A DNA stretch of 28,409 bases, taken from IMG/VR virus record IMGVR_UViG_3300031951_014982, positions 1 to 28,409 of that record; one strand, given 5' to 3'. Origin of the DNA: a virus. Shown here in pieces: positions 7,208 to 25,336 of the stretch. Position 1 is the first letter of the stretch, and every line of letters starts with the position of its first letter. The position numbers and the translations under genes are program-made. The notes under the pieces are model-generated. The model was not told where the DNA came from. It did not search any database and saw only the letters and a list, made by a program, of their open reading frames with translations.

Positions 7208-8335
7208 ATGAGCACCGAAGGAACCGAGAATCCGACCACCGCGACCGCGACCGCCGAACCGCAGAAGTCGGCGGGTGCCGTCCGTCGACGCCCCGCGACC
7301 GGAGCGACGACCGCGACGACGACCACGCCGGCGGGTGACGTCGAGAAGACCGACGCGCCGAAGGCCGACGCGACGAAGACCGACGCACCGAAGACGGAAA
7401 CCTCGCCGGGAGAGACGCCCGCCGACGAGCCGACCGCCGACACCGAAGCGGAGGATGACGACCTGTTCGCGGCCTTCGGCGCCCGGTCGGTGGCCGGTGG
7501 CGGCATCGACCGCACGAAGATCCGGCGCAAGCTGTTGATCCACGGCGAGAGCGGGGCCGGTAAGAGCCACCTGCTCGCGACCTGCGACGCGCGGCCGCTG
7601 ATCATCAGCCTGGAGCCTCAGGGCGTGGATACGCTGGCGGCGGCCAACCCCCGGGCGTTGATCGTCGACTGCGTGAAGCTGTCCAAGGAGGACGGCGCGA
7701 TGCAGGCGAAGATCAAGGCGAAGGGACAGCCGGTCACCCCGCTCGCGATCCTCCGGCACATGCTGGGCGAGCTCGTGAGCAACGCCCCGGCCTGGCACAA
7801 GAAGGGCGTGACCAGGGTCGGCTTCGATTCGCTCCACATCATCCAGCAGATGTTCGCCGCGGAGATCGTCTCCGAGACGAACAAGAGCCGGAAGGCGGAC
7901 GGCAAGGAGAGCCTGGACCAGCTCGCCAAGGACGGCTGGGGCGTCCTCGGCACGAAGATGCAGAACTTCTGCGACACGCTCCGCGCGCTCGACTTCGACG
8001 TGCTCGTGGTGGCGATCTCCAAGCAGAAGGAGACGGGGCCGAAGTACGCCGGCCTCCAGGGCGCGTTCTCCGACCAGGTCAACGGGTACTTCAACGCGGT
8101 CGGGTACATCTACAAGCAGCAGATCCCCGGAAAGACGCTGGACGAGGTCGAGCGCCTCGTGTGCTGGGACGCCGACAGCGAGAAGCTGGTGGTCAAGAGC
8201 CACGGCGGCCTGAAGGGGATCACGTCTCCGGACGCGGCCGAGTGGTTCACCGCCATGAGCACCGACGCCGAGATGGTCCTGAAGAACGCCCGGCTCCCGA
8301 AAGAGCTTCGCCGCAAGCCTGTCGCGGGCGCCTGA
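7208..8335 (+). CDS. Sak4-like RecA-fold ATPase (phage recombinase)
   Basis: This 375-residue protein has a P-loop GESGAGKS (113-120) and a Walker B-like V-G-F-D-S (204-208). The compact core without a helicase or protease domain matches phage AAA/RecA-fold ATPases of the Sak4 type, which anneal single strands together with SSB. Residues 1-85 are a disordered Thr/Ala/Pro linker with three tandem K-x-D-A-x units. The linker contains A-G-A-V-R-R-R-P (22-29), and the C-terminus is L-R-R-K-P-V-A-G-A, both copies of the shared basic peptide. The start ATG follows TAGGAGA, which includes the preceding stop. Position next to a nuclease and an SSB supports a recombination role. Confidence 0.82.
   Translation: MSTEGTENPTTATATAEPQKSAGAVRRRPATGATTATTTTPAGDVEKTDAPKADATKTDAPKTETSPGETPADEPTADTEAEDDDLFAAFGARSVAGGGIDRTKIRRKLLIHGESGAGKSHLLATCDARPLIISLEPQGVDTLAAANPRALIVDCVKLSKEDGAMQAKIKAKGQPVTPLAILRHMLGELVSNAPAWHKKGVTRVGFDSLHIIQQMFAAEIVSETNKSRKADGKESLDQLAKDGWGVLGTKMQNFCDTLRALDFDVLVVAISKQKETGPKYAGLQGAFSDQVNGYFNAVGYIYKQQIPGKTLDEVERLVCWDADSEKLVVKSHGGLKGITSPDAAEWFTAMSTDAEMVLKNARLPKELRRKPVAGA
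7346..7390 (+). repeat. Three tandem 15-bp units in the ATPase linker
   Basis: Three consecutive units encode K-T-D-A-P, K-A-D-A-T and K-T-D-A-P with only a few base differences. They lie in the disordered N-terminal linker of the Sak4-like protein and could vary in number by slippage. Confidence 0.75.
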
Positions 8336-8337
8336 GC

Positions 8338-8364
8338 GGCTACAGTCTCCCCGCCGGGGCGGAT
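8338..8364 (+). promoter_or_regulatory. Gene-start element GGCTACA with a nearby hairpin
   Basis: GGCTACA (8338-8344) is followed within 5 nt by CCCC-GCC-GGGG. It lies 76 nt before the preferred ATG at 8421, farther than other copies; an alternative ATG at 8388 lies 43 nt away but lacks a ribosome site. Confidence 0.45.
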
Positions 8365-8420
8365 GCGCCTCCTCCCCGGCCTAACCGATGGCGCGAAACA
8401 CCGAAGAAACCGAGGGCGAC

Positions 8421-9068
8421 ATGTCATTCATCGTGAATGCGGGTGAGCGTAAGAAGGAAGCCGAGGCGCATGGCTTCGACGTCGAGACGGGCGAGACGAC
8501 CCGCAAGGTCATGGACAACCTGCGGGCCAACTACACGGTGGCCGTCGTGGGTCTGAGCCGGCGGACGTCAGCCAAGGGCACCAACATGCTCGGGATCCGG
8601 TTCGTCTGCGTTGACGCGCGGGATCGCGTGTCGGGCGACGTGCTCAAGGACCAGATCGGGCGCGTCCTCGATCGCGAGTACGCGATCACGGAGTCGGCGA
8701 TCGGGTTCCTGTCCGATCTCATCGTCGCCTGCGGGTACGATGGGAACTACGACCCGATGGACAACGAGCGGCTCAACGACATCTTCGCCGGCGCGCCGAG
8801 CGGCCTCGTGCGGTTCCGGCTCAAGGAGCGGGAGTACACGAAGAAGGACGGGTCGAAGGGGAAGGCGTTCGAGCCGTCCACCTACTTCAAGTTTCCGACC
8901 GGCGTCGACACCCCGGACGGGGCCGACGAGTTGATCAACGTCGCGATCGACGACTTCAACAAGTACCTCGAAAACCTGGAGAAGAACCCGCGCCGGTCGG
9001 CTGGCGGTGGCGGCGCTTCGGGCGGTGGTGGTGGCTCGGTCGACGACAACTCGGACCTTCCCTTTTAG
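8421..9068 (+). CDS. Single-stranded DNA-binding protein (SSB-like, DLPF acidic tail)
   Basis: I favour ATG 8421 (GAGGG 5 nt upstream) over ATG 8388, which has no ribosome site. The 215-residue product has a beta-rich core (about residues 35-165) resembling phage OB-fold ssDNA-binding proteins. A Gly/Ser linker follows (194-206), and the acidic tip is D-D-N-S-D-L-P-F. That tip matches the protein-interaction tail of bacterial SSBs, which end in D-(I/L)-P-F and recruit helicases, nucleases and repair enzymes. It lies between the recombinase and the RuvC-like gene. The core fold is inferred from context and tail rather than from strong motifs. Confidence 0.8.
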   Translation: MSFIVNAGERKKEAEAHGFDVETGETTRKVMDNLRANYTVAVVGLSRRTSAKGTNMLGIRFVCVDARDRVSGDVLKDQIGRVLDREYAITESAIGFLSDLIVACGYDGNYDPMDNERLNDIFAGAPSGLVRFRLKEREYTKKDGSKGKAFEPSTYFKFPTGVDTPDGADELINVAIDDFNKYLENLEKNPRRSAGGGGASGGGGGSVDDNSDLPF

Positions 9069-9093
9069 TTCACGTCTGGCTTGGGGCGACCTG

Positions 9094-9810
9094 ATGCGAG
9101 TCCTCGGGATCGATCCCGGCCATGATGGGGCCGCCGCGCTGCTCGATGCAGCCGGCGGCCTCTCTGCGTTGTGGTCCTGGCGCCGCGTGCAGCGGAACGG
9201 CCTCACCGCGTACACGCTCGTGTGCGTGGCGCTGGTCGATGGGGAGTGGCGGACGTCCACCTGGACGGTGCCGACCCTGGGGCGCGTCGGGGCGAAGCTC
9301 GGCGAGTGGATGCCGGCCGAGGCGACGGTGATCGCGCACGAACTGCCCTTCGTCGGGAAGTCGGTATCGGCGGCGCTGTCGGTCGCGTTCTCCTCCGGCG
9401 AGGTGATCGGTCCCATCCGCGCGCTCGCCAGCTTCCGCGAGGTCGAGGGCGTGAAGCCCACCGAGTGGCGGTCGGCGCTGGGCGTCGCAGGCGGCAAGCG
9501 GGCCGACGCGAAGGCGCAGGCCGAGGTCATCGCCTGGACGGTCCCCGGCCTCTCCGACGCGCTCGCCGTGCTGGCCCAGGCCGGCGGCTACACGGCGGAC
9601 GAACCGCACGCGGCCGAAGCGGCTGGCGTCGCGCGGTGGAGGTGGCTGTGGCTCGGAAAAGAGCGACCGCGTCCGAAGCGGACATCGAAGCGGTCTACAA
9701 CGACTGGCGCCGTCGCCAGAAGGTCCCGGCCCTCTGTCGGCTCTCCGAAGAGCGGAAGAGGAAGATCGGGCAGGCCATCGGCTCTCGGGGACGGGTCGAC
9801 CTCGTCGTGA
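9094..9810 (+). CDS. RuvC-like Holliday junction resolvase
   Basis: The start is ATG 9094. Residues 1-18 hold the RNase H-fold opening motif G-I-D-P-G-H-D-G with Asp7. Further acidic residues sit where RuvC carries its metal ligands: Glu83 in A-H-E-L-P, and Asp169 and Glu175 in D-E-P-H-A-A-E-A-A. A basic patch around K-R-A-D-A-K lies at 135-140. Such enzymes resolve branched replication and recombination intermediates before packaging. After about residue 190 the sequence becomes a Lys/Arg/Ser-rich tail of poor quality and overlaps the next gene by 163 nt in another frame. The true end may therefore differ because of a frameshift or a sequence error, or the tail may be dispensable. Confidence 0.82.
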   Translation: MRVLGIDPGHDGAAALLDAAGGLSALWSWRRVQRNGLTAYTLVCVALVDGEWRTSTWTVPTLGRVGAKLGEWMPAEATVIAHELPFVGKSVSAALSVAFSSGEVIGPIRALASFREVEGVKPTEWRSALGVAGGKRADAKAQAEVIAWTVPGLSDALAVLAQAGGYTADEPHAAEAAGVARWRWLWLGKERPRPKRTSKRSTTTGAVARRSRPSVGSPKSGRGRSGRPSALGDGSTSS

Positions 9811-10178
9811 TGTTCGAGTGGGTGTGGTCGTCCGACGACGAGGGCGCCCGGTTCCTGCGAGGCGATCATCCCCGGTCCCGTCCCGAGGGCTGGCTTGATC
9901 TCGACAACCTGCTGGTCGCCAGCAAGCTCGACGCGCGCTGCGAGGCGGCGGCGCTCTGGTTCAGCCGAGAGCGGATCGCGCCGCTCCTGTCGGGCGGCTT
10001 CGACGCGGCCTGCGCAGCGCTGTCGTGGCCGGCCGACGACCTGATGCCGCTGTGGAGCCTTGCCGCGGCGAGCGAGCCCGCAGAGCGGTCCCTGGCCGAC
10101 GTCGTGGCGCGGCTCCGCGGCGCTCCGTTGAGCGGCATGGCGATCCGCCGGCGGCCCGTCGCGGGTGGTGAGGCTTGA
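9648..10178 (+). CDS. Possible phage replication organizer or helicase-loader protein
   Basis: The chosen GTG start has GGAGG 5 nt upstream, inside the end of the RuvC-like frame. The 176-residue product has a central segment with F-L-R-G, then G-W-L-D-L-D-N-L-L-V-A-S-K-L-D (about residues 69-95). This resembles the C-terminal region of phage replication organizers and DnaD-like loaders, in which a short Trp/Asp motif precedes the final helix. The N-terminus is basic and helical. Residues 162-171 read L-S-G-M-A-I-R-R-R-P, a strong copy of the shared basic peptide. Being directly coupled to the primase-helicase gene supports a loader role. The family match is from memory of motif style only. 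Confidence 0.6.
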   Translation: MARKRATASEADIEAVYNDWRRRQKVPALCRLSEERKRKIGQAIGSRGRVDLVVMFEWVWSSDDEGARFLRGDHPRSRPEGWLDLDNLLVASKLDARCEAAALWFSRERIAPLLSGGFDAACAALSWPADDLMPLWSLAAASEPAERSLADVVARLRGAPLSGMAIRRRPVAGGEA

Positions 10179-12307
10179 ACTGGATCGACGTGTTCAAGCG
10201 AGACAACTCGGCCGCCTCTGTCGCCGACCGGATCGGGATGTCCGGCCGGATGGGCGGGTCGTACACGCCGTGCCCCGCCTGTCGGGCGGACAAGCGGAGC
10301 GAAGGAGATCGCCGTGGGCCGGTCGGGCTGACGGGAGATCGGCGCGCCTGGACGTGCCACCGGTGCGGCGCCAAGGGTGACGGCCTGGACATGCTCGCCT
10401 ACAACCGGCTCGGTCGGGGCTGTTCGGGCCTGTCGTCCTCCGATTGGGACGCGCTGCGGGAAGCGGCCGTCGGCTTCGGGCTCCTGGAGGTCGACGCGGC
10501 CGCTCCCGACCGCAAGCCGGCGCACAATGTTCAGAGCGTAGGGTCGGCCATCCAGAGCATGATGGGCGGAGGTCGAAGGAAGATCGCGATGGGCGGCACC
10601 GCCAAGGCGGACCCCGCGACCTCGCCGGAGGAGGACGCCCCACCGTCCGGCGGGATGTTCGGCTGGGGTGAGGACGTCGCCGAGCGGTGCGAGCGCGCTC
10701 TGTGGGCGGACACCCCAGAGGCCGGCATCGCCCGCGACTACCTGATGAAGGTCAGGAAGCTGGCGGAGGCGTCGATCCGCGCCTTCGGGCTCGGCCTGTA
10801 CGTCGACGCCGACGGCCGGCCGGTCACCAACGCGCAGGGGCACGACGGCCGGCCCTGGCTGACGATCCCGTTGGTCGACGACCACGAGCGGTGCGTGAAC
10901 GTCCGATACCGGACGATCCCGGTGGTGGGGACGTGCGCGCACTGCTCCGACCCGCTCGGCTGCAAGAAGTGCAAGTCGTACCGAGTGACCAAGGGCCGGC
11001 CGCTCCCGCTGTTCGGCGTCGACAAGCTGCCGAACGACCTCGGCACCTGGATCATGATCACCGAGGGCGAACTGGACGTGGTGGCGCTCCACTCCTACGG
11101 CTTCACGGCCGGCGTCGTCTCCGGCTCGGCCGGGGCCGGCACCTGGGACGACAAGTGGCTGGACGCCCTGGAACCCTACGCCGGCTTCGTCGGGATGTAC
11201 GACGCGGACGACGCGGGAGAGAAGGGCTGGACGAGCCTCGTGGAGAAGCTCGGCCGGTACCGGTGCGCGCGCGCCGAGCTCCCCGAGAAGGACGCCAACG
11301 CCTGCCTCGTCGCGGACGTGAGCCGGCGGGTGATGGACCGGGTGATCGACGGGGCGAAGTCCAGCGTCGGCGTCGATTTGATGAAGGCCACCGAGTACGT
11401 CGACGAGCTGGAGATGCTGATCTCCAACCCGTCGAAGGTCCGCGGCCTCAGCACCGGGTCTCAGCTGCTCGACTCGGCTTGGGGCGGCGTCCGGCCGGGC
11501 GTGATCGTCGTGTCCGGCGAGAGCGGCCAGGGGAAGACGACGTGGGCGACCTGGCTGCTGGACACCCTCTCCCGGCGAGGTGTCCCGACCCTGCTGACCA
11601 GCTTCGAGCAGAGGCCGATCGGCACCGTCCAGAAGCTGTTGAGGCTCGAGCTCGGACGCAAGCACCCCGACAAGTGCGCCGCGCTCCAAGGCGACTTCAC
11701 CAAGCTCACCCCGGACGAGCGCCGGGAGATGATCGAGAAGATCGGCGAGCGGCCGCTCTACATCCTCAACCACTACGGGCACCTGACGCCGACGCAGACC
11801 ATCGAGTCGCTGAGGTACGCGGCCCGGCGGTACGGCGTCCGGGTGGCGATGGTCGACCATCTCGGCTTCCTCGTCGACCCCGACGCGCAGGACGAGCGGC
11901 GCGCCACCGACGCGGTGATCCGGGCCATGACCCTCACCGCCAAGGAGCTCGACATCACGATCTTCCTCATCGCCCACCCGAGCAACATCCCGCGGGAGAC
12001 GGTCCACGGGAAGCCCCGGCGGATCACCGCCCGCGACCTGAAGGGCTCGTCGGCCATCCGACAGGACGCCGACGACGTGATCATCATCGAAGCTCTCCCG
12101 CTGGAGAAGGAGAGCAAGGCCAACGCGCGGACGTGGCCGGCGACGGCCGTCCACTTCGATAAGGTCCGCTCTGAGTTCGGTACGTCAGGTGCAACCGTCG
12201 TCATGGCGTTTGACCCGGCGGCCACCCTGTACGCTGACTCCTGGGACGATACGCCGAGCGGACAGGACGGCAAGTTGTCTCCCCACTACACCAAGAATCC
12301 TGTCTGA
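10175..12307 (+). CDS. Primase-helicase (TOPRIM plus DnaB-like)
   Basis: The TTG start at 10175 overlaps the previous TGA (TTGA). The 710-residue protein has, in order, a zinc-binding primase domain (C-P-A-C at 33/36 and C-H-R-C at 61/64) and a TOPRIM domain with T-E-G-E-L-D (296-301) and Y-D-A-D-D-A-G (342-348). A RecA/DnaB-like helicase domain follows with Walker A GESGQGKT (448-455) and Walker B M-V-D-H (559-562). Extra Cys pairs at 254/257 and 263/266 lie just ahead of TOPRIM. This is the T7 gp4/Twinkle plan: it unwinds the fork and primes the lagging strand. No DNA polymerase is seen here, so it may work with one outside the window or with the host enzyme. Confidence 0.92.
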   Translation: MNWIDVFKRDNSAASVADRIGMSGRMGGSYTPCPACRADKRSEGDRRGPVGLTGDRRAWTCHRCGAKGDGLDMLAYNRLGRGCSGLSSSDWDALREAAVGFGLLEVDAAAPDRKPAHNVQSVGSAIQSMMGGGRRKIAMGGTAKADPATSPEEDAPPSGGMFGWGEDVAERCERALWADTPEAGIARDYLMKVRKLAEASIRAFGLGLYVDADGRPVTNAQGHDGRPWLTIPLVDDHERCVNVRYRTIPVVGTCAHCSDPLGCKKCKSYRVTKGRPLPLFGVDKLPNDLGTWIMITEGELDVVALHSYGFTAGVVSGSAGAGTWDDKWLDALEPYAGFVGMYDADDAGEKGWTSLVEKLGRYRCARAELPEKDANACLVADVSRRVMDRVIDGAKSSVGVDLMKATEYVDELEMLISNPSKVRGLSTGSQLLDSAWGGVRPGVIVVSGESGQGKTTWATWLLDTLSRRGVPTLLTSFEQRPIGTVQKLLRLELGRKHPDKCAALQGDFTKLTPDERREMIEKIGERPLYILNHYGHLTPTQTIESLRYAARRYGVRVAMVDHLGFLVDPDAQDERRATDAVIRAMTLTAKELDITIFLIAHPSNIPRETVHGKPRRITARDLKGSSAIRQDADDVIIIEALPLEKESKANARTWPATAVHFDKVRSEFGTSGATVVMAFDPAATLYADSWDDTPSGQDGKLSPHYTKNPV

Positions 12308-12322
12308 TCCCGAGGTGAACCC

Positions 12323-13252
12323 ATGAGTATCCCTGACTTCCGCGCCCTCGACGGTTCGACCGCCGACGGCAAGATCCAGAGCGTCGCCTTCAAATCGGAC
12401 GGCGGCACCGAAGAGACGTTGCTTTACACCGTGAAGATGGTGTTCCCGATCACCACGCCGGCCGACGCCGCCCGCCTCGCGCCCATCCTCCCCGGCGCGG
12501 TCCAGATCTTCGACCGCGTCCAGATGGCCAGCGAAGACGACGTGGAGAAGTTCGCGCAGGCCGTCCGCACGCCGAGCCTCAACGCCTGCCGGGTCGCGCT
12601 GACCACCACCAACGGCGCGGACGAGATCATCGCGGGCGCCGCGCAGATCAAGTCGATCTCGCTCCGTGCCTCCCGCAAGGAGGTCGCGGCCGTCGTTGAC
12701 GTCGAGTGGGGCGGCCAGACGGCTCAACGCGCGGCCGATCTCGCTCGCAACCACCGGAAGGTGGTGTCGTTCAGCTTCGGGATGGCGCAGGGCGTCCTCC
12801 CGTTCCCGCGCGCCGTTGCCGAGGACCACGAGCAGGTGGCCTACGACATCGGCGACGTCGTGTGCGCGAAGGCGACGTTCGGAGAGTTCTGGGGCCGGCT
12901 GGTCGACAGCGTCGGCACCGACGGCAAGGTGACCGACATCATCGTCGAGGACCTCGACGGCCGGTCCTTCGAGGTGAAGCCCTTCGACCTCGTCAGCGCG
13001 ATGCCGGTCCAGCCGGCCGACAAGGCGCCGACGTCGGCGGGCATCAAGGCCTACATCAAGCAGTGCCGCTCTCACGACATCACGCCTTCGTGGAAGTGGC
13101 TGGTGCTCGGCCTCGCGGACGCGAACGAGTCCCCCGAGCAGGACGGGGCCGGCAACGCGGTAGAGCAGATCACCGACGCGGTCGTGCAGGCCGCCATCGC
13201 GCTGCAGCTCGAGGAGAGCGCCGGCGAGGCCGAGACGGGCACCGACGGTTGA
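12323..13252 (+). CDS. Unknown protein embedded in the replication block, 309 residues
   Basis: The start ATG follows GAGGTG at good spacing. The protein is soluble and mixed alpha/beta, without Cys pairs, a P-loop or membrane segments. Residues about 30-125 contain regular strand/helix alternation, and 150-235 hold a strand-rich part with V-E-D-L-D-G-R-S-F. The tail from about 285 is Glu/Gly-rich and disordered. I do not recognise a family. Its place between the primase-helicase and the DinG-like helicase suggests a replication or repair accessory such as a clamp-like, ssDNA-binding or nuclease-partner protein, but nothing in the sequence proves this. Confidence 0.75.
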   Translation: MSIPDFRALDGSTADGKIQSVAFKSDGGTEETLLYTVKMVFPITTPADAARLAPILPGAVQIFDRVQMASEDDVEKFAQAVRTPSLNACRVALTTTNGADEIIAGAAQIKSISLRASRKEVAAVVDVEWGGQTAQRAADLARNHRKVVSFSFGMAQGVLPFPRAVAEDHEQVAYDIGDVVCAKATFGEFWGRLVDSVGTDGKVTDIIVEDLDGRSFEVKPFDLVSAMPVQPADKAPTSAGIKAYIKQCRSHDITPSWKWLVLGLADANESPEQDGAGNAVEQITDAVVQAAIALQLEESAGEAETGTDG

Positions 13253-13263
13253 TCCTCGCCGGC

Positions 13264-13287
13264 GGCTACACCCTCGCCTGAGGAGGT
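13264..13287 (+). promoter_or_regulatory. Gene-start module GGCTACA plus Shine-Dalgarno hairpin
   Basis: GGCTACA at 13264-13270 is followed by CCTC-GCCT-GAGG and then AGGAGGT. The ATG is at 13295, 24 nt after the element. Confidence 0.6.
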
Positions 13288-13294
13288 AGCCGCC

Positions 13295-15670
13295 ATGGGC
13301 GACCAAGAGATCCCGTATACGGACCCCGACGATCCGGGCTTCGACCCTGAGGCCCTGCCGGCCGGTCCGCGTCCGACCAGCGAGGCGACGCAGCCCGGCC
13401 TGTTCGGCACCGCGCCGGAGGAGGAAGACGACGAGCAGCCGACGCCGCCGGCGGACATCGTCCCGGGCAGCCTGGCCGCGCTGGCCTACGACATCGACGG
13501 CCAGTCCATCTACGCGCTGACGGAGATGTTCTACGGCCCGACGGGTCCGATCGCTCAGGCCGGCTGGGAGGTCCGGGACAGCCAGCGGGTCATGAGCCTG
13601 GAGGTCGCCCGCCGCGCCGACGCCGGCCTCGAGGCGTTCCGTACCGGCGACCAGCCCAGCCAGCGTGAGTGGTCCATCGTCGAGGCGCCGTGCGGCGTCG
13701 GCAAGGGGCTGGCGTACCTGGTCCCCGGGCTGCTGGCGTCGGTGCGGGCCGAGGCCCTGCGTCCGCTCCAGCCGACGCTCCCGAACGGTCGGAAGCCGCC
13801 GGCCCCGAAGCTCATCGTGTCGACGGCGGGGATCGCGCTCCAAGCGCAGCTGATCCGCAAGGACATCCCGAACCTGGGCGCGATGCTCGGGTTCGTCGTC
13901 CGGTCGGCGATGATGAAGTCGGTCAGCAACTACCTGTGCAAGAAGAACATGATGGCGCTGGGCGGCGAGGTCGCAAACCGTGACGTCGCGTCGTTGGTCC
14001 ACTGGTCGATGGACGAGAACTGCACCGGCGACAAGGAAGATCTGACCTTCGAGGTTTCTCCGGCCGCCTGGGCGCAGGTGTCGACCACCTCGGACTCGTG
14101 CGCCGGCCCGAAGTGCTCGCTGTTCAAGCAGTGTCACTGGGCGCTGGCGAAGCGCGGGGCGGACATCGCGCACGTCGTGGTGGCGAACCACCACTACCTC
14201 GCGCTCGCGTCGATGGGGCCGGCCCACACGCTGGCGGTGGACGAGGCCCACAAGTTCGAGGAGGCGTTGCGGAAGGCGGCCGAGCTTCGGATCGGCCCTG
14301 GCGTCGCGCGGTTCTGGATGAAGTCGACCCACCTCGATCAGCTGCTCGACGAGCCCGGCGTGGGGCAGTCCATCGCCGACGCGGTGATCCGGCTGCTGAC
14401 GACCAGCGCGCGGGCCGCCCGGATGGACGAGCGGACGCGCGACGCCAAGGTGATCCCCGACATCTCCGACGCGATGCAGGCCGACGTCCGCCGCTTCCAC
14501 ATCCTGAACGCGCGGATCAACGTGGCCGCCCGTGGCGCCGGCCTGCTCGCGAAGATGAACGGTCGGTTCTACGCGCCCAAGAGCGGCGGGCAGGAGATGG
14601 ACCGGATCGCGAGGGGCGTGAACGCGTACCTGAACCTGTCGGAGAAGTTCGCGGCCCTCGCCAACCACGTCGGGGATGAGAGCTTCGGGGAGATCTGGGC
14701 TTGGTTCTGCGAGCCGGCCCCATTCGACCCGAAGCGCCGGGACTACGAGCTGCCCGACGTCGTGGGCGCGCCGGCCGACGTGGCGGCGAAGTGCCTGGCC
14801 CTCGGCGACAACTACCCGCAGGCGGTGATCACCTCCGCGACCCTGCCGGACTTCGACGGGCTGAGGCCGATGCTCGGCTTCACGACCTCGGCGCCGCCGA
14901 AGGCCGAACTCCGGTTGCCGTCGCCCTACCCGCTGCACGAACTCGGCGCGCTGGCCGTCCCGCTGATGCCGGATCCGAAGGACCCCGAGTGGCCGTCGGC
15001 CGCCGTCGAGCGCGTCGTGGACCTGGTCGCGGCCTCCGGTGGCGGGGCGCTGGTGCTGGCGACCAGCAACGTGCAGAAGAAGGCCTACGCCCGTGCGCTC
15101 CGCGAGCGTCTCCCGAACCTGACCGTCCGAGAGCAGGGCGACGCCGGCCGGACCGAGCTGCTTCGGTGGTTTGCGTCCGACGTGGACGGCGTGCTGGTCG
15201 GGAGCCGGTCGTTCTTCGAGGGCGTTGACGTCCAGGGGCAGGCGTGCCGGCTGGTCATCATCGACAAGATCCCGTTCGGTGGAGTCGGCGATCCCGTCGA
15301 GGAAGCCGTCGGCGCGTGGATCGTGGAGCAGATGGGCGGCAAGGACAGCGCCTACATGCTCAGGACGGTCCCTCAGGCCGCGATGGCGCTGGCGCAGGGT
15401 GCCGGCCGGCTGATCCGATGCGCGACCGACCGGGGCGTGGTGGCGCTCCTCGACACGCGGATCCTCAACAACGGCGGCGCCTGGGGCAAGCTCCGGGCCG
15501 CCCTCCCGCCGTTCCCGGTGGTGCGCACCGCCGCCGCCGTCCGCCGGGCGCTGGCGGGCTCGCTGCTGCCGGAGGACGTGACCACGCTGGACCAGTCCAC
15601 GCCGGCCGGCCGGTTGGCGACACCCACGACCGGGATGGCGATCCGTCGCCGGCCGGTCAAGCCCTCCTGA
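13295..15670 (+). CDS. DinG/XPD-like iron-sulfur helicase
   Basis: This 791-residue protein has the layout of a DinG-type 5'-3' helicase. The Walker A region is E-A-P-C-G-V-G-K-G (130-138). Iron-sulfur cysteines lie at 215, 269, 274 and 280. The DEAH box is at 316-319. The C-terminal lobe has S-R-S-F-F-E-G-V-D and Q-G-A-G-R-L-I-R. Such enzymes unwind D-loops, R-loops and G-quadruplex DNA. The Walker A loop ends GKG where GKS/T is expected, so magnesium binding may be altered. The disordered N-terminus holds Q-P-G-L-F (33-37), which fits the Q-x-x-L-F pattern of sliding-clamp-binding peptides. The C-terminus is G-M-A-I-R-R-R-P-V-K-P-S, a shared basic peptide. Confidence 0.88.
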   Translation: MGDQEIPYTDPDDPGFDPEALPAGPRPTSEATQPGLFGTAPEEEDDEQPTPPADIVPGSLAALAYDIDGQSIYALTEMFYGPTGPIAQAGWEVRDSQRVMSLEVARRADAGLEAFRTGDQPSQREWSIVEAPCGVGKGLAYLVPGLLASVRAEALRPLQPTLPNGRKPPAPKLIVSTAGIALQAQLIRKDIPNLGAMLGFVVRSAMMKSVSNYLCKKNMMALGGEVANRDVASLVHWSMDENCTGDKEDLTFEVSPAAWAQVSTTSDSCAGPKCSLFKQCHWALAKRGADIAHVVVANHHYLALASMGPAHTLAVDEAHKFEEALRKAAELRIGPGVARFWMKSTHLDQLLDEPGVGQSIADAVIRLLTTSARAARMDERTRDAKVIPDISDAMQADVRRFHILNARINVAARGAGLLAKMNGRFYAPKSGGQEMDRIARGVNAYLNLSEKFAALANHVGDESFGEIWAWFCEPAPFDPKRRDYELPDVVGAPADVAAKCLALGDNYPQAVITSATLPDFDGLRPMLGFTTSAPPKAELRLPSPYPLHELGALAVPLMPDPKDPEWPSAAVERVVDLVAASGGGALVLATSNVQKKAYARALRERLPNLTVREQGDAGRTELLRWFASDVDGVLVGSRSFFEGVDVQGQACRLVIIDKIPFGGVGDPVEEAVGAWIVEQMGGKDSAYMLRTVPQAAMALAQGAGRLIRCATDRGVVALLDTRILNNGGAWGKLRAALPPFPVVRTAAAVRRALAGSLLPEDVTTLDQSTPAGRLATPTTGMAIRRRPVKPS

Positions 15671-15682
15671 GGAGTGACGACG

Positions 15683-15982
15683 ATGGAACGCTGTACGACG
15701 ATGGTGCTCGACGCGCGGGACATGGAACGCGCGGTGGACGATCCGAAGCTCAACCGGCTGATCCGCGACGGGTGGACGGTGATCTCTTCGGTGACCGTCG
15801 ACATCGGGACCGAAGACCGGCCCCGGCCGAGCCTGCTGCTGGTGTTGGCCCCGCCGGTGCCCCGCGGCCTGGGCTCGCTGGAGACGGGATGGGGCCGTGT
15901 GCTGGCCGCGGGGATCTGGCTGGGCGGTGTCGGCGTGTTCACGCACGCGCTCGTGGCTCTCGTCGGGCTGCTGGCGCGCTGA
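15683..15982 (+). CDS. Small tail-anchored membrane protein, 99 residues
   Basis: ATG 15683 is preceded by TGAGGAG 8 nt away; a GTG at 15674 overlaps that site and is less likely. Residues 1-70 are soluble and charged. One hydrophobic helix spans about residues 73-98 (V-L-A-A-G-I-W-L-G-G ... L-L-A), with a single Arg after it, so the protein is probably anchored by its C-terminus with the N-terminal part in the cytoplasm. Its function is unknown. It follows the replication genes with only a 12-nt gap and may be part of the same transcript. Its stop is immediately followed by a near-palindrome copy. Confidence 0.7.
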   Translation: MERCTTMVLDARDMERAVDDPKLNRLIRDGWTVISSVTVDIGTEDRPRPSLLLVLAPPVPRGLGSLETGWGRVLAAGIWLGGVGVFTHALVALVGLLAR

Positions 15983-15987
15983 GGTCC

Positions 15988-16034
15988 CTCCGGCGAGGTG
16001 CCCGTGTTCGCGCGGCTACACCTCGCCGAGGAGG
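15988..16034 (+). promoter_or_regulatory. Composite start region: near-palindrome, GGCTACA, Shine-Dalgarno hairpin
   Basis: CTCCGGCGAGGT (15988-15999) lies 14 nt before GGCTACA (16014-16020). That is followed by ACCTCGCCGAGGAGG (16020-16034), in which CTC can pair with GAG. The ATG is at 16041. This is the clearest composite of both dispersed elements. Confidence 0.6.
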
Positions 16035-16040
16035 GTGCTC

Positions 16041-16610
16041 ATGGAACGAGCCTCTGTGCTGGTGCGGTTCGAGGTGGACGTGGACGACGACGGAAAGATC
16101 GTCTCAGGCCGAGCGCGGGTGACCGGCCCCGGCCATTCGCTTCGTGACGACGCGTGGATCTCGGTGGGTCGCGACCACATCCGGCAACAGGCGATCCACG
16201 AACTTGCCGAAGACGTGTTCTCCGACCTCGGCGCCGACCTGTGGACCGGCCTCGCCGCCTCCTACTCGCTCGCCGAGTACGCCGACGCCGCGAGCCGGAC
16301 GGCCGTCTACCCGAAGGTCGCGCTCCAGGGCGGCCAGCCGACGGGGCTGATCTACTCCGCGATGGGGCTGGCCGGTGAGGCCGGCGAGGTCGCCGAGCAG
16401 GTCAAGAAGTTCATGCGGGACGACGGCGGCACGCTGCGAGAGGAGCGCCGTCAGAAGCTGATCCACGAACTCGGTGACGTCCTCTGGTACGTCGCGGCCG
16501 TCGCCTACGACCTCGGTGTCAGCCTGGACGAGGTGGCCGAGGCGAACATCGCGAAGCTGGCGAGCCGTCAGGAGCGCGGGGTGCTCGGCGGGTCGGGAGA
16601 CGACCGGTGA
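16041..16610 (+). CDS. MazG-like nucleoside triphosphate pyrophosphohydrolase
   Basis: Residues about 105-175 carry the MazG-type helical metal-binding pattern: E-x-x-E at 113-116 in G-E-A-G-E-V-A-E, and E-x-x-D at 143-146 in H-E-L-G-D-V-L-W. The whole protein is 189 residues; the first 85 form an extra N-terminal domain that I do not recognise. MazG-like enzymes split NTPs or dNTPs to the monophosphate plus pyrophosphate, and in phages they are thought to adjust nucleotide pools or (p)ppGpp during infection. The ATG is chosen for the GGAGGG site and gene-start module. It is coupled to the ASCH-like gene. Confidence 0.85.
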   Translation: MERASVLVRFEVDVDDDGKIVSGRARVTGPGHSLRDDAWISVGRDHIRQQAIHELAEDVFSDLGADLWTGLAASYSLAEYADAASRTAVYPKVALQGGQPTGLIYSAMGLAGEAGEVAEQVKKFMRDDGGTLREERRQKLIHELGDVLWYVAAVAYDLGVSLDEVAEANIAKLASRQERGVLGGSGDDR

Positions 16611-17077
16611 AGCCGACACACGCGCTCAGCATCATGCAGCCGTGGGCGGGTGCCATCGTCCACGGCCCGAAGCGGATCGAGAACCGGACGTGGCGGCCCT
16701 TCCAGTTGAAGGACGGCCCGTTCGCGATCTGGATCCACGCCAGCGCGAAGCCGGACCGCGCCTCTCTCGACCGTCCGACGCCCGCCCTCCATAGCTGGGG
16801 AGTGTGGAGCGATGCCGTCCGCTTCTCCTCGCCGGCATGGGGCCTGACCTGCGGGGCGATCATCGGCGCAGCGGTCGTCTACAGCGTCCGCGACCGCGTG
16901 GACGACCTGCCCGAAGGTCAGGAGGAATGGTGGGCCGGCCCGCTTGCCTGGGTGCTCTGCGACAGAGTGGCGCTCCGAGAGCCCGTCCGCGCGTCCGGCC
17001 GGCTGTCCCTGTGGCGGCCGACGCCGGAGGTCCAGGCGGCGTGCATCGAGCGCCTGCCGGACGGGTGGGGCCGGTAG
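16607..17077 (+). CDS. ASCH-domain-like protein
   Basis: The GTG start overlaps the preceding TGA (GTGA). Residues 6-32 read A-L-S-I-M-Q-P-W-A ... K-R-I-E-N-R-T-W, the start pattern of ASCH/PUA-like domains seen in many phage and bacterial proteins. The rest of the 156 residues alternates strands and short helices with several conserved-looking Trp, ending in G-W-G-R. ASCH domains bind RNA or modified nucleotides, and some members are amidohydrolases acting on N4-acetylcytidine. Which activity this one has cannot be told. Coupling to the MazG-like gene hints at nucleotide metabolism. Confidence 0.75.
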   Translation: MKPTHALSIMQPWAGAIVHGPKRIENRTWRPFQLKDGPFAIWIHASAKPDRASLDRPTPALHSWGVWSDAVRFSSPAWGLTCGAIIGAAVVYSVRDRVDDLPEGQEEWWAGPLAWVLCDRVALREPVRASGRLSLWRPTPEVQAACIERLPDGWGR

Positions 17078-17111
17078 TTGGTCGGGTCCGTTGAGCGTTG
17101 AGGAGGTGGCC

Positions 17112-17441
17112 GTGAAGCGGGTCTGCATCGACTACTGGCTGTGGGAGCGGATCAGCGTTCGCACGTTGAGCCTCCCGACCGGCCTCTACGTCGGATCGCT
17201 CTGGTCGAACGGCGACACGAAGGCGCCGAGGCTTTCGATCATCCTCCCGGGCGACAAGGAGGGCACGGTCAATATCGTGAGCGCGCCGGTGACGTGGAGC
17301 GACGCCCACCGCTGGCTGTTCCCGCGCGGGTGGCGAGAGGCGATCCGCGCCTACGACGAGCGGTGGAAGTTCCCGAAGCCCGGCAACGTCCATCGGCTGA
17401 TCCTCACCGGCAAGCCGGCGTTCCGTCGCGGGGTGCGGTGA
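17112..17441 (+). CDS. Hypothetical protein, 109 residues
   Basis: GTG 17112 is chosen because AGGAGGT lies 5 nt upstream; longer in-frame extensions run into the previous gene. The protein has alternating strands and aromatic residues (C-I-D-Y-W-L-W-E near the N-terminus, W-L-F-P-R-G-W in the middle) and a basic tail F-R-R-G-V-R. There is no Cys pair, membrane segment or known motif. Its last base is shared with the next gene (TGATG), which implies coupling. The function is unknown. Confidence 0.7.
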   Translation: MKRVCIDYWLWERISVRTLSLPTGLYVGSLWSNGDTKAPRLSIILPGDKEGTVNIVSAPVTWSDAHRWLFPRGWREAIRAYDERWKFPKPGNVHRLILTGKPAFRRGVR

Positions 17442-17932
17442 TGGCCGACGAGGGCGGGAACCCGTTCGCCGGCCTGGGTCGGGAGGCGCGAGCGCGGATG
17501 ATCTTCCAGCTGCTCGACGCCGAACTGGACAGCGCCCGCCGCGCGGCGATGCGAGCCAAGGTCAACGGGATCGGGTTCCCGAGTTACGTCGCGGCCGGCA
17601 AGCACATCGTCCGCGCCCACAAGGCGGTGGCCGAGGCGGTGACCGGCTCGATCGCGCTCGAAGCGAACCCGGCCGCCACCTTCCAGGAACACCTCGCCGG
17701 GGAGAGGGCGCTGCACGAGGCTGTCGGCCAGCTCCAGGCCGCTCGTGCGTTCGAGCAGAAGGTGGACGGGATGACGTTCGGCGGTCCCTCACCGGCCACG
17801 ACGACCACGACGACGCCGACACGCCGGCCAGAGCCCGACGCGCGACCCCGACCGACCAGCGGGACGGCTGTGCGTCGGCGGCCGGCTGGAGACGCCAAGC
17901 CGGCCGCTCCCGGGCTGTTCGACAAGCCCTGA
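17441..17932 (+). CDS. Helical protein with RRRP and PGLF tail peptides, 163 residues
   Basis: The ATG overlaps the previous stop (TGATG). Residues about 12-110 are helical and amphipathic. Residues 115-139 form a Thr/Pro-rich disordered linker with a run of Thr. The tail carries both shared peptides: T-S-G-T-A-V-R-R-R-P (139-148) and P-G-L-F (157-160), almost at the C-terminus. Because the same peptides occur in the DinG-like helicase and other replication proteins, this protein probably joins the same assembly, perhaps as an adaptor or ssDNA-related factor. A reverse copy of the near-palindrome (17691-17707) lies inside the gene. The family is not recognised. Confidence 0.75.
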   Translation: MADEGGNPFAGLGREARARMIFQLLDAELDSARRAAMRAKVNGIGFPSYVAAGKHIVRAHKAVAEAVTGSIALEANPAATFQEHLAGERALHEAVGQLQAARAFEQKVDGMTFGGPSPATTTTTTPTRRPEPDARPRPTSGTAVRRRPAGDAKPAAPGLFDKP

Positions 17933-22924: not shown

Positions 22925-25336
22925 ATGCCGACCTACAGCGTTCCCCTGCACGTCACCGCCAGCGCGATCCGCCGTCGGATCATGATGTCGGCGCCTCCCG
23001 GCAACGGCTACGTCATCCAGTCGGACTCTACGGCGGACGAGGGCTATTCCTGGGTCCTGGCCGGTGGTGGCGGCGGGACCACGAACCACGCCGCCCTGAA
23101 CAACCTCGGCTGGCTGTACTCGGGTCACACCCACACCAGCACGGGGATCGCCGGCTTCAACGGCGTGACCGCGGCCGTCTACGGCTACGGCACGGCCGGC
23201 GGCGTGGCGGCCTACAACACGACGGTCGCCAGCTTCGGAGCCCTGACGCCCGTCGACGGAAAGTGGCTCGGGTACAGCAGCGGGGCGCTCACCTGGTCCA
23301 CGCCGACGGCGGCCGTCGACTGGGTGACCTTCGTCGGGCAGGCGTCGAACCCCGGCGGCGCGTCGACGACATCGACCCTCTACATGAGCGACGGCACCGA
23401 GTACGACGCCGGGACGCTGGTCTGGTCGCGGAAGACGGTGTTCCGCGAGGCGATGGCGATCGGTGAGCCGGGCACCGAGCAGGCCGACATCAAGCTGGGC
23501 GGGGTCACCTACGCCGCTCCGTTGAAGGTGAACAGCTTCGGGGCGTCGCGGGCCGCCTGCATCCTGCATCAGCACTCGAACACGGTAGAGCCCGATCTCG
23601 TGTTCGCGCGAGCTCGCGGGACGACGTCGTCGCATACGATCGTGCAGGACACCGACATCTTCGGCAGGCTCATCTTCTCCGGCTGGCTCGACGGGACGAC
23701 CGGCTACGCGCGCGGGGCGGAGATCCGCGCTCATGCTGACGGGACCGTCTCCACCACCTCGATCCCGACACGGATCGACTTCGCGACGACCGGCACGGGA
23801 GCGACCTCGCCCACCGACCGGTGGTGTATCCTGCCTGGAGGCACGCTCCGGCCGGCGGCTGACGCGACCTACCAGATCGGGAACAACACCTACACCCCGC
23901 TGGAAGTCTGGTCGCTCCAGTACACGAACAGGGTGCAGGCGGCGGTTCAGGCTCCGAGCGGTGGGTGGTCGACGTCGTTGGCGGCCTTCTGGACGAAGAC
24001 CGGTGGACTCCCGCAGCACACGTACAACGGCACTGACCGCCAACTTGCGCTGGCCGGAGCAAACGCCGACATCACGTCCTTGTCGGGGATGTCGGGTCTC
24101 GTGTTGAACCCGTCGTCGACGACCGGGATGATCAGCATCGGGAACGTCGTCGCGCTGAGCCTCGACGGCACTGCACCAAAGGCCGGGATCCGGATCTCGA
24201 ATGAGTTCAACGGGGTCAGCGTCGCCGAGCCGCTCTTGGTTCTCGACCACACGAGCGCGAGCGGCGCGAACCAGTTGATCCGCACACGTTCGCTCGGCAC
24301 CTCAGGGTCGAAGTCGACGGTGGTGTCCGGCACGAACATCAGCGATGACACATGGTGGGCCTACAACGGCACCAACTACCAGTTGGCTGTCGGGCAAGCC
24401 GTGGCCGTCGACGCCGCGCTGTCGGGCGGCACCCCGCCGGGAAGGATCGTCTGGAGCCTCCGGAACAGCAGCGGGACCTACGCGGAGCGGATGCGGCTCA
24501 ACGGCGCCGCCCTCACGATGTCGGTGCCGCTCGCGTTCAACAACGCCCCGGACGCAGCCAGCACCTTCAACGCGATCAAGCAGACCGGCACCACGACGTC
24601 GTCGGGTGTCTTCGAGGCGGCGACCCCGGCCGAACAGAGCTCGACGGCCGTCCTCACCTCCGACGACCACCGGCTGATCTACAGCTACCCGCCCGACAAG
24701 TGCGGCTCGCGCACCTCAGCGGCGAACGCGGCAGGATCTGGCACCGGATTCATGGAGGGGATCACCTACTTCGCGACCCCGGCCCGCAACTACATCACCG
24801 GCTTCGGGCACATCGACAGCAACACGTCGTCGACGACGGCTGACCGCGGTTGGTACCTGACGCCGAGCACGAACAGCCACCTGACGTTCGCCAAGTTGGT
24901 CGGCTCGCGGGTGTCTGCGAAGTTCGCCGTCCCCAGCGACAACCTGCGCGGGTTCGTGGCGTTTGCCGAAACCGGCTCTCCGACGCTGATCCCGGCCAAC
25001 GCGCCGAACACGTTGGAAGTCATCCGGCTGGGCGTCTACAACAACGTGTTCACCTGGTCGATCTCGGACGGGACGAACGAGACGACCGGATCGCTGACGA
25101 ACACCGGCCATACGGCCGGCACCGTCTACGAGTACGAGATCATCTGGACGTCGAGCACGAACGTCACGTTTAACATCTACAACGCAGACCGCTCGGCCCT
25201 GTTGGAAACGACCACCCGCAACACCGGCATTCCGGCGAGCGGGTCGACGACGCAGTGCTTCATCGGCGTCTTCATTAGGCCGGCGGCGACGACGCCGACC
25301 ATCTTCTACGGCCTCGGACGTCTACGGATTCCGTGA
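22925..25336 (+). CDS. Tail-fibre or receptor-binding-like structural protein, 803 residues
   Basis: The ATG follows GAGAGGG. The protein is rich in Gly, Ser, Thr and Asn, with few charges and many short strand-turn repeats, as in phage fibres and beta-helical tail spikes. Middle segments resemble trimeric phage fibre regions (for example H-A-D-G-T-V-S-T-T and D-R-W-C-I-L-P-G-G-T-L-R-P, then D-A-T-Y-Q-I-G). The last 150 residues (from about 640) look like a lectin-like beta-sandwich that could bind host sugars. It would sit on the virion surface. The position before the terminase is unusual. Confidence 0.75.
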   Translation: MPTYSVPLHVTASAIRRRIMMSAPPGNGYVIQSDSTADEGYSWVLAGGGGGTTNHAALNNLGWLYSGHTHTSTGIAGFNGVTAAVYGYGTAGGVAAYNTTVASFGALTPVDGKWLGYSSGALTWSTPTAAVDWVTFVGQASNPGGASTTSTLYMSDGTEYDAGTLVWSRKTVFREAMAIGEPGTEQADIKLGGVTYAAPLKVNSFGASRAACILHQHSNTVEPDLVFARARGTTSSHTIVQDTDIFGRLIFSGWLDGTTGYARGAEIRAHADGTVSTTSIPTRIDFATTGTGATSPTDRWCILPGGTLRPAADATYQIGNNTYTPLEVWSLQYTNRVQAAVQAPSGGWSTSLAAFWTKTGGLPQHTYNGTDRQLALAGANADITSLSGMSGLVLNPSSTTGMISIGNVVALSLDGTAPKAGIRISNEFNGVSVAEPLLVLDHTSASGANQLIRTRSLGTSGSKSTVVSGTNISDDTWWAYNGTNYQLAVGQAVAVDAALSGGTPPGRIVWSLRNSSGTYAERMRLNGAALTMSVPLAFNNAPDAASTFNAIKQTGTTTSSGVFEAATPAEQSSTAVLTSDDHRLIYSYPPDKCGSRTSAANAAGSGTGFMEGITYFATPARNYITGFGHIDSNTSSTTADRGWYLTPSTNSHLTFAKLVGSRVSAKFAVPSDNLRGFVAFAETGSPTLIPANAPNTLEVIRLGVYNNVFTWSISDGTNETTGSLTNTGHTAGTVYEYEIIWTSSTNVTFNIYNADRSALLETTTRNTGIPASGSTTQCFIGVFIRPAATTPTIFYGLGRLRIP

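Follow-up and report, generated by a model that had tools for sequence, protein, structure and literature searches.

The stretch of DNA analyzed here, referred to throughout as the window, is the whole of IMG/VR virus record IMGVR_UViG_3300031951_014982, 28,409 bases in length with a GC content of 70%, from which a set of 26 proteins comprising 8,248 residues was taken. Four unrelated proteins of this uncultured bacteriophage, namely, a Sak4-like ATPase, a protein designated 9648, a DinG-like helicase, and a protein designated 17441, carry toward their ends nearly the same short, Arg-rich basic peptide, hereafter the tag, whose refined consensus is P-x(1,2)-[ST]-[GA]-x-A-[IV]-R-R-R-P-[VA].

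Four carriers of a basic peptide

The carrier genes and their copies of the tag are distributed as follows.

7208-8335, + strand: Sak4-like RecA-fold ATPase, 375 residues; phrog_124 at E 2.5e-15, PF13479 at 49 bits (cut-off 27)
7268-7297, + strand: Sak4 tag copy SAGAVRRRPA in the N-terminal extension, AGAVRRRP being residues 22-29; predicted local distance difference test score (pLDDT) < 50
8306-8332, + strand: Sak4 half copy LRRKPVAGA at the C-terminus; pLDDT < 50
9648-10178, + strand: 9648 protein, 176 residues, replication initiator- or helicase loader-like, short form, as judged from relatives, position, and fold
10131-10160, + strand: 9648 tag copy SGMAIRRRPV near the C-terminus, within residues of pLDDT < 50
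13295-15670, + strand: DinG-like (XPD-type) helicase, 791 residues; phrog_2488 at E 4.1e-38, PF13307 (Helicase_C_2) at 100.8 bits (cut-off 25.3)
15629-15658, + strand: DinG tag copy TGMAIRRRPV at the C-terminus, past the region common to other DinG-like helicases
17441-17932, + strand: 17441 protein, 163 residues, with a Thr/Pro-rich tail
17858-17887, + strand: 17441 tag copy SGTAVRRRPA, set 15 residues back from the C-terminal end

Aligned in full, the four copies read PQKSAGAVRRRPA in Sak4, PLSGMAIRRRPV in 9648, PTTGMAIRRRPV in DinG, and PTSGTAVRRRPA in 17441. Within their proteins, the C-terminal sequence of 9648 is SGMAIRRRPVAGGEA and that of the DinG-like helicase is TGMAIRRRPVKPS, while the 17441 protein contains TSGTAVRRRPAGD; the half copy at the Sak4 end, LRRKPVAGA, is similar to RRRPVAGGEA at the end of 9648. 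All of the peptides named in a first-pass annotation of this DNA were found where it had placed them, in the window sequence and in the translations. The pattern it proposed, (S/T)GxA(I/V)RRRP, strictly fits three of the four proteins, the Sak4 copy reading S-A-G-A-V and the C-terminal Sak4 copy being only a half. A near-match of the tag core is present in a structural gene, where AIRRR without the following Pro occupies residues 14-18 of a tail-fibre-like protein (22925-25336), and these five letters alone are thus not limited to replication genes. The DinG N-terminus (13295-13420), PRPTSEATQPGLFG, and the 17441 C-terminus (17858-17932), PRPTS-(tag)-APGLFDKP, moreover have PRPTS and PGLF in common and in the same order.

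The four carriers had been described in the annotation as replication proteins, which holds for Sak4 and DinG by family and, on weak or positional evidence, for 9648. The Sak4-like protein, of the single-stranded DNA annealing type, belongs to the RecA-core ATPases of PHROG 124 and PF13479. Profile searches with 9648 gave no family match of its own; its orthologue in L294, one of the relatives described below, matches phrog_16167, "replication initiation protein", weakly (E 0.11), the fold of 9648 as modelled by AlphaFold has weak matches in BFVD to predicted replication initiators of phages (E 0.46-0.6, with none at E ≤ 0.001), and its gene lies immediately upstream of that of the primase/helicase, a position kept in the relatives. 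We place moderate trust in its assignment as an initiator or loader. The 17441 protein has no family below E 0.1 in profile searches and no match in phage proteins; to count it among the replication proteins on account of its tag would be arguing in a circle. In AlphaFold models computed with orthologue alignments of 11 and 9 sequences, pLDDT is < 50 over residues 144-176 of 9648 and over residues 1-104 and 353-375 of Sak4, and the tags of both proteins lie in predicted disordered ends; the annotation had placed all four carriers' tags in such ends, and the models cover these two. The disordered N-terminal extension of Sak4, about 100 residues long (window 7208-7520), presents the tag first and is then strongly acidic, ending EAEDDDLFAAFG.

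Recurrence beyond composition and likeness at the protein level

The motif A[IV]RRRP occurs four times in the 26 window proteins against a shuffle mean of 0.003-0.005, a count reached by none of 2,000 shuffles, and only once in 257,798 residues of gene calls from 56 GC-rich control contigs. RRR alone is about twofold in excess, whereas A[IV]RRRP is about thousandfold. While this motif count reflects a post hoc choice, a seed test that presets no motif does not: the identities of each 9-mer to its best match are summed over the three best other proteins. The best seed of the window, SGMAIRRRP, scores 8+7+6 = 21, above the highest value in 285 local shuffles (19) and in 33 GC-rich control contigs (20); using 12-mers, the window scores 24, compared to at most 22 in 267 shuffles and at most 21 in the 33 controls. 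An 8-mer version yielded three partner proteins with 6/8 identities, equalled in 7 of 135 shuffles, and the exact 8-mer match in the window was equalled in none of the 135. The likeness among the tags exceeds coincidence of composition; the first-pass annotation's own caveat, that the peptide might prove similarly frequent in other proteins, is answered by the single occurrence among the control gene calls.

This likeness resides in the proteins, and no signal of copied DNA accompanies it. The 9648 and DinG copies use the same codon at 4 of their 8 identical non-Met residues, 3.6 being expected from window codon use, and over all six pairs of copies the lowest same-codon count is 1, where 2.98 would be expected, and the highest 4, where 2.2 would be. 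Because codon sharing in the closest pair equals the codon-usage expectation, the likeness is assigned to the protein level; a copied DNA repeat is rejected on this test, and the annotation was correct in that the Arg codons differ between copies.

A peptide search of 50,697 phage records returned one match, at a meaningless E of 6. As an exact DNA pattern, GMAIRRRP retrieved 33 stretches from IMG/VR, none of which, except the near-identical L033, lies in a recognisable replication gene end; several have Ser for Arg (MGN also covers AGY), and others are short or out of frame. A literature search found no paper on RRRP with phage replication, nor on short linear motifs together with the single-stranded DNA-binding protein (SSB) and phage replication.

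The replication module and its relatives

Sak4 and 9648 are encoded in a module that also contains the following genes.

8388-9068, + strand: SSB-like protein without the tag, with acidic tail DDNSDLPF, recognised from sequence and a weak match to phrog_378 (E 6.5e-4)
9091-9657, between the SSB and 9648 genes: RuvC-like Holliday junction resolvase; phrog_1770 at E 4.1e-5, phrog_159 at E 7e-4
10175-12307, + strand: primase/helicase without the tag; phrog_239 at E 1.5e-59

Relatives of this module were obtained by alignment queries after single-protein searches had failed to find any: Sak4 in phages, and DinG and the DinG motif in IMG/VR, gave no match, and the primase matched only L033. A primase alignment query found 14 IMG/VR contigs (L291-L304) whose primases are 37-42% identical to that of the window. 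To the extent that each contig covers the module, its gene order is that of the window, with helicase, exonuclease, Sak4, SSB, the orthologue of 9648, and primase, and the SSB gene that adjoins Sak4 in the window is likewise its neighbor in L294, L295, L298, L302, and L303. The SSB ends of five relatives read DDDIPF, DEDIPF, EDDIPF, or DSDIPF. A further fragment, L205, starts in the primase; L205:1-11644 holds, besides this gene, counterparts related to window genes 12323 and 15674. A match to DinG is missing both from L291-L304 (threshold E 1e-3) and from the L205 record over its full length.

Where the window's Sak4 ends in LRRKPVAGA, 11 of the 13 relatives keeping the Sak4 end have ARRRR, in the form ARRRR(T/A)AQ; L302 has RSRRRSR and L303 none of these. 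The 9648 orthologues present LGP(L/M)AAYRRR after the core domain in 13 of 14 cases, and AAYRAR in L302. By position, this suggests continuity of a basic peptide in the relatives. As aligned, the relatives' Sak4 proteins do not have the long N-terminal extension that holds the window's best tag copy. The 9648 orthologues are about 360-390 residues long, with an additional domain at the N-terminus and a helix-turn-helix (HTH)-like segment at the C-terminus, compared to the window's 176 residues.

Two further observations concern the wider neighborhood. In the relatives, the last residues of the exonuclease encoded ahead of Sak4 are (V/E)ECPF at 8 of 10 loci (L292, L294, L295, L296, L298, L300, L301, and L304; e.g., L294:5824-7446), an end that mimics the Phe-ended acidic tip of the adjoining SSB and could compete for or share the SSB-tip partner. 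Among L118-L122, fragments related through TerL (40-46% identical), no Sak4 or primase match was detectable, which suggests that the packaging and replication genes are mosaic with respect to each other.

Proposed docking to an acidic partner and its alternatives

The reading we favor, with a probability of roughly 0.4, is that the tag is a lineage-specific basic docking peptide on flexible ends, which would bring its four carriers to one common acidic partner. What we infer is the binding and the identity of that partner: displayed on the ends of Sak4, 9648, the DinG-like helicase, and 17441, the peptide would gather them at the phage's replication or recombination site. The fixed A-[IV] before the Arg triplet and the P after it make the tag more than a charge pattern. 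The first candidate for the partner is the acidic SSB tail DDNSDLPF, retained as such because the SSB is the sole acidic hub visible in the module; nucleic acid itself would come next.

Parallels are found in several known systems. In HK620, a Sak4-like ATPase gene likewise adjoins an SSB gene. The C-terminal tail of that SSB, acidic and ending in Phe, brings Sak4 to coated single-stranded DNA, and the last six SSB residues are required for Sak4 binding to SSB-coated DNA (PMC5928155). This requirement, together with the acidic SSB tails here, renders a meeting with the SSB tail the most concrete docking model. HK620 differs in that a shared peptide on other proteins is not known there. More broadly, the C-terminal tip of bacterial SSB (DDDIPF) anchors a network in which one acidic single-stranded DNA hub gathers many repair and replication proteins, as described in the same report (PMC5928155). 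The partners known for this tip bind it through folded basic pockets, whereas what recurs in the window is a linear basic peptide borne by the proposed partners. The LAST motif of T4 gp32, a basic/hydroxyl pentapeptide located in a flexible terminus of a single-stranded DNA protein, also mediates contacts, but it has a different sequence without RRRP and is confined to one protein family. The sliding-clamp-binding motif QxxLF is a hydrophobic short peptide that directs the ends of unrelated replication proteins to a shared hub; the tag, basic rather than hydrophobic, has no such pattern and was rejected as an instance of it. A separate QPGLF at the DinG N-terminus fits this clamp-binding pentapeptide. 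Equally rejected was the AT-hook, whose RGRP core (Arg-x-Arg-Pro-like) is found in disordered segments, as all four copies read RRRP without the central Gly. The tag can reasonably be viewed as a lineage-specific member of an established class, the short docking motifs of replication proteins.

A number of findings weigh against docking. The best ungapped pairwise BLOSUM62 score, 52, is ordinary for shuffles of local composition (mean of 60 maxima, 51.6); the tag signal sits in recurrence across proteins and in no single pair. The exact peptide is absent from the 14 relatives, from L205, and from the DinG relatives listed; absence from orthologues in related phages was one of two findings that the annotation had said would refute it, and by that strict standard the tag fails. 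In the data seen, the exact tag is confined to this phage and L033, a near-identical sister. Many of the 14 relatives are near-duplicates, so their kept Arg clusters amount to few independent cases. A homology between the tag of 9648 and the AAYRRR linker of the relatives, which their locations make plausible, was rejected: the local alignment of the window tail to the linker falls short of significance (p 0.19-0.58 by shuffling), and MAFFT set the tail against the later HTH-like segment instead. Sak4 of HK620 has no basic C-terminal tail, such that the HK620 SSB tail must be received elsewhere, and L303 combines an acidic SSB tail with a Sak4 lacking a basic one. In a survey of 35 prophage loci, of which L338 and L357 were dropped for having no Sak4 by blast, leaving 33, a basic Sak4 tail (net charge of +3 or more over the last 15 residues) was present in 1 of 9 loci with an acidic Phe-ended neighbor versus 2 of 23 without, L337, with its incomplete end, lying outside the 23; neighbors were called by tail pattern only, which can misfire (L355), and the flanks are short. 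The charge threshold was reached in L340, L346, and L349, with an acidic Phe-ended neighbor only in L349.

Among ten further phage Sak4 loci, only that of mycobacteriophage Butterscotch (L310:2992-4782) pairs a basic Sak4 tail, KRPARKTASARTQKESA, with an acidic neighbor, which ends DSDGEDDPF. A general rule linking basic Sak4 tails to acidic SSB tails is rejected on the combined evidence of HK620, these ten loci, and the 33 prophage loci. Overall, the annotation's proposal of a docking, localisation, or assembly tag is partly supported, docking being a reasonable reading of the sequences. Its placement at a replication or repair center is favored by three of the four carriers being replication or recombination proteins, and by Sak4 and 9648 lying in a module kept in relatives, but the strict tag is absent from those relatives.

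The main rival is direct nucleic-acid binding by generic Arg-rich tails, whereby flexible ends would have gained basic residues and GC-rich coding would have made the tails alike. Consistent with such an origin are the action of Sak4, DinG, and 9648 on DNA by family, the GC content of the genome, and the varied Arg clusters (ARRRR, AAYRRR, RSRRRSR) that relatives bear at the same places; yet charge explains the Arg residues and not the constant A-[IV] and P in all four copies, nor the disparity between the RRR and A[IV]RRRP excesses, and we consider these tails a possible but somewhat unlikely source of the tag. A stronger role for composition, with Pro-, Ala-, Gly-, and Arg-rich tails in a GC-rich genome matching by chance and being picked after the fact, would accommodate the post hoc motif, the unexceptional best pair, the AIRRR of the tail-fibre-like protein, and the absence of the exact peptide from relatives. 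Such coincidence is nonetheless improbable, considering that seed tests without a preset motif rank the window first against both local shuffles and real control contigs.

Copying of gene ends is a further candidate, in which an ancestral tail, perhaps that of 9648, recombined onto other genes and its silent sites diverged, with function possibly absent today. The 9648 and DinG copies are identical at 25 of 30 nucleotides over the 10-mer, their likeness continues upstream with one gap (RLRGAPLSG/RLA-TPTTG), and tails are poorly constrained. However, codon identity is no higher than for unrelated copies of the same peptide, and the Sak4 tag resides at the opposite end of its protein, which makes such an origin quite unlikely. 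The same two copies end 14-15 nucleotides before the next start (ends 10160 and 15658; starts 10175 and 15674), a similar spacing that would suit a gene-junction element acting in DNA or RNA as a regulatory or translation-coupling signal. We regard this as very improbable, because the other two copies do not adjoin a next start, that of Sak4 being 60 nucleotides into its gene and that of 17441 preceding the stop of its gene by 45 nucleotides, and codon use in the copies shows no nucleotide constraint beyond the peptide.

Returning to docking, the HK620 work raises the question of which part of Sak4 meets the SSB tail, and whether a flexible basic end can take that role. A more specific version of the docking proposal, which we deem unlikely, is a private peptide address, where a hub at the fork would read P-x-[ST]-G-x-A-[IV]-RRRP and thereby gather the annealase, the initiator or loader, the DinG-type helicase, and 17441. 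If true, the 17441 protein would be a new part of the phage replication and recombination machine. In contrast to the universal hub pockets of the SSB-tip and clamp systems, a private code of this type would be lineage-specific and readily gained or lost on protein ends. It would then follow that phages develop short peptide addresses of their own to assemble replication proteins, separate from the universal codes of the SSB tip and the clamp; such tails would allow unknown phage genes to be placed in the replication machine.

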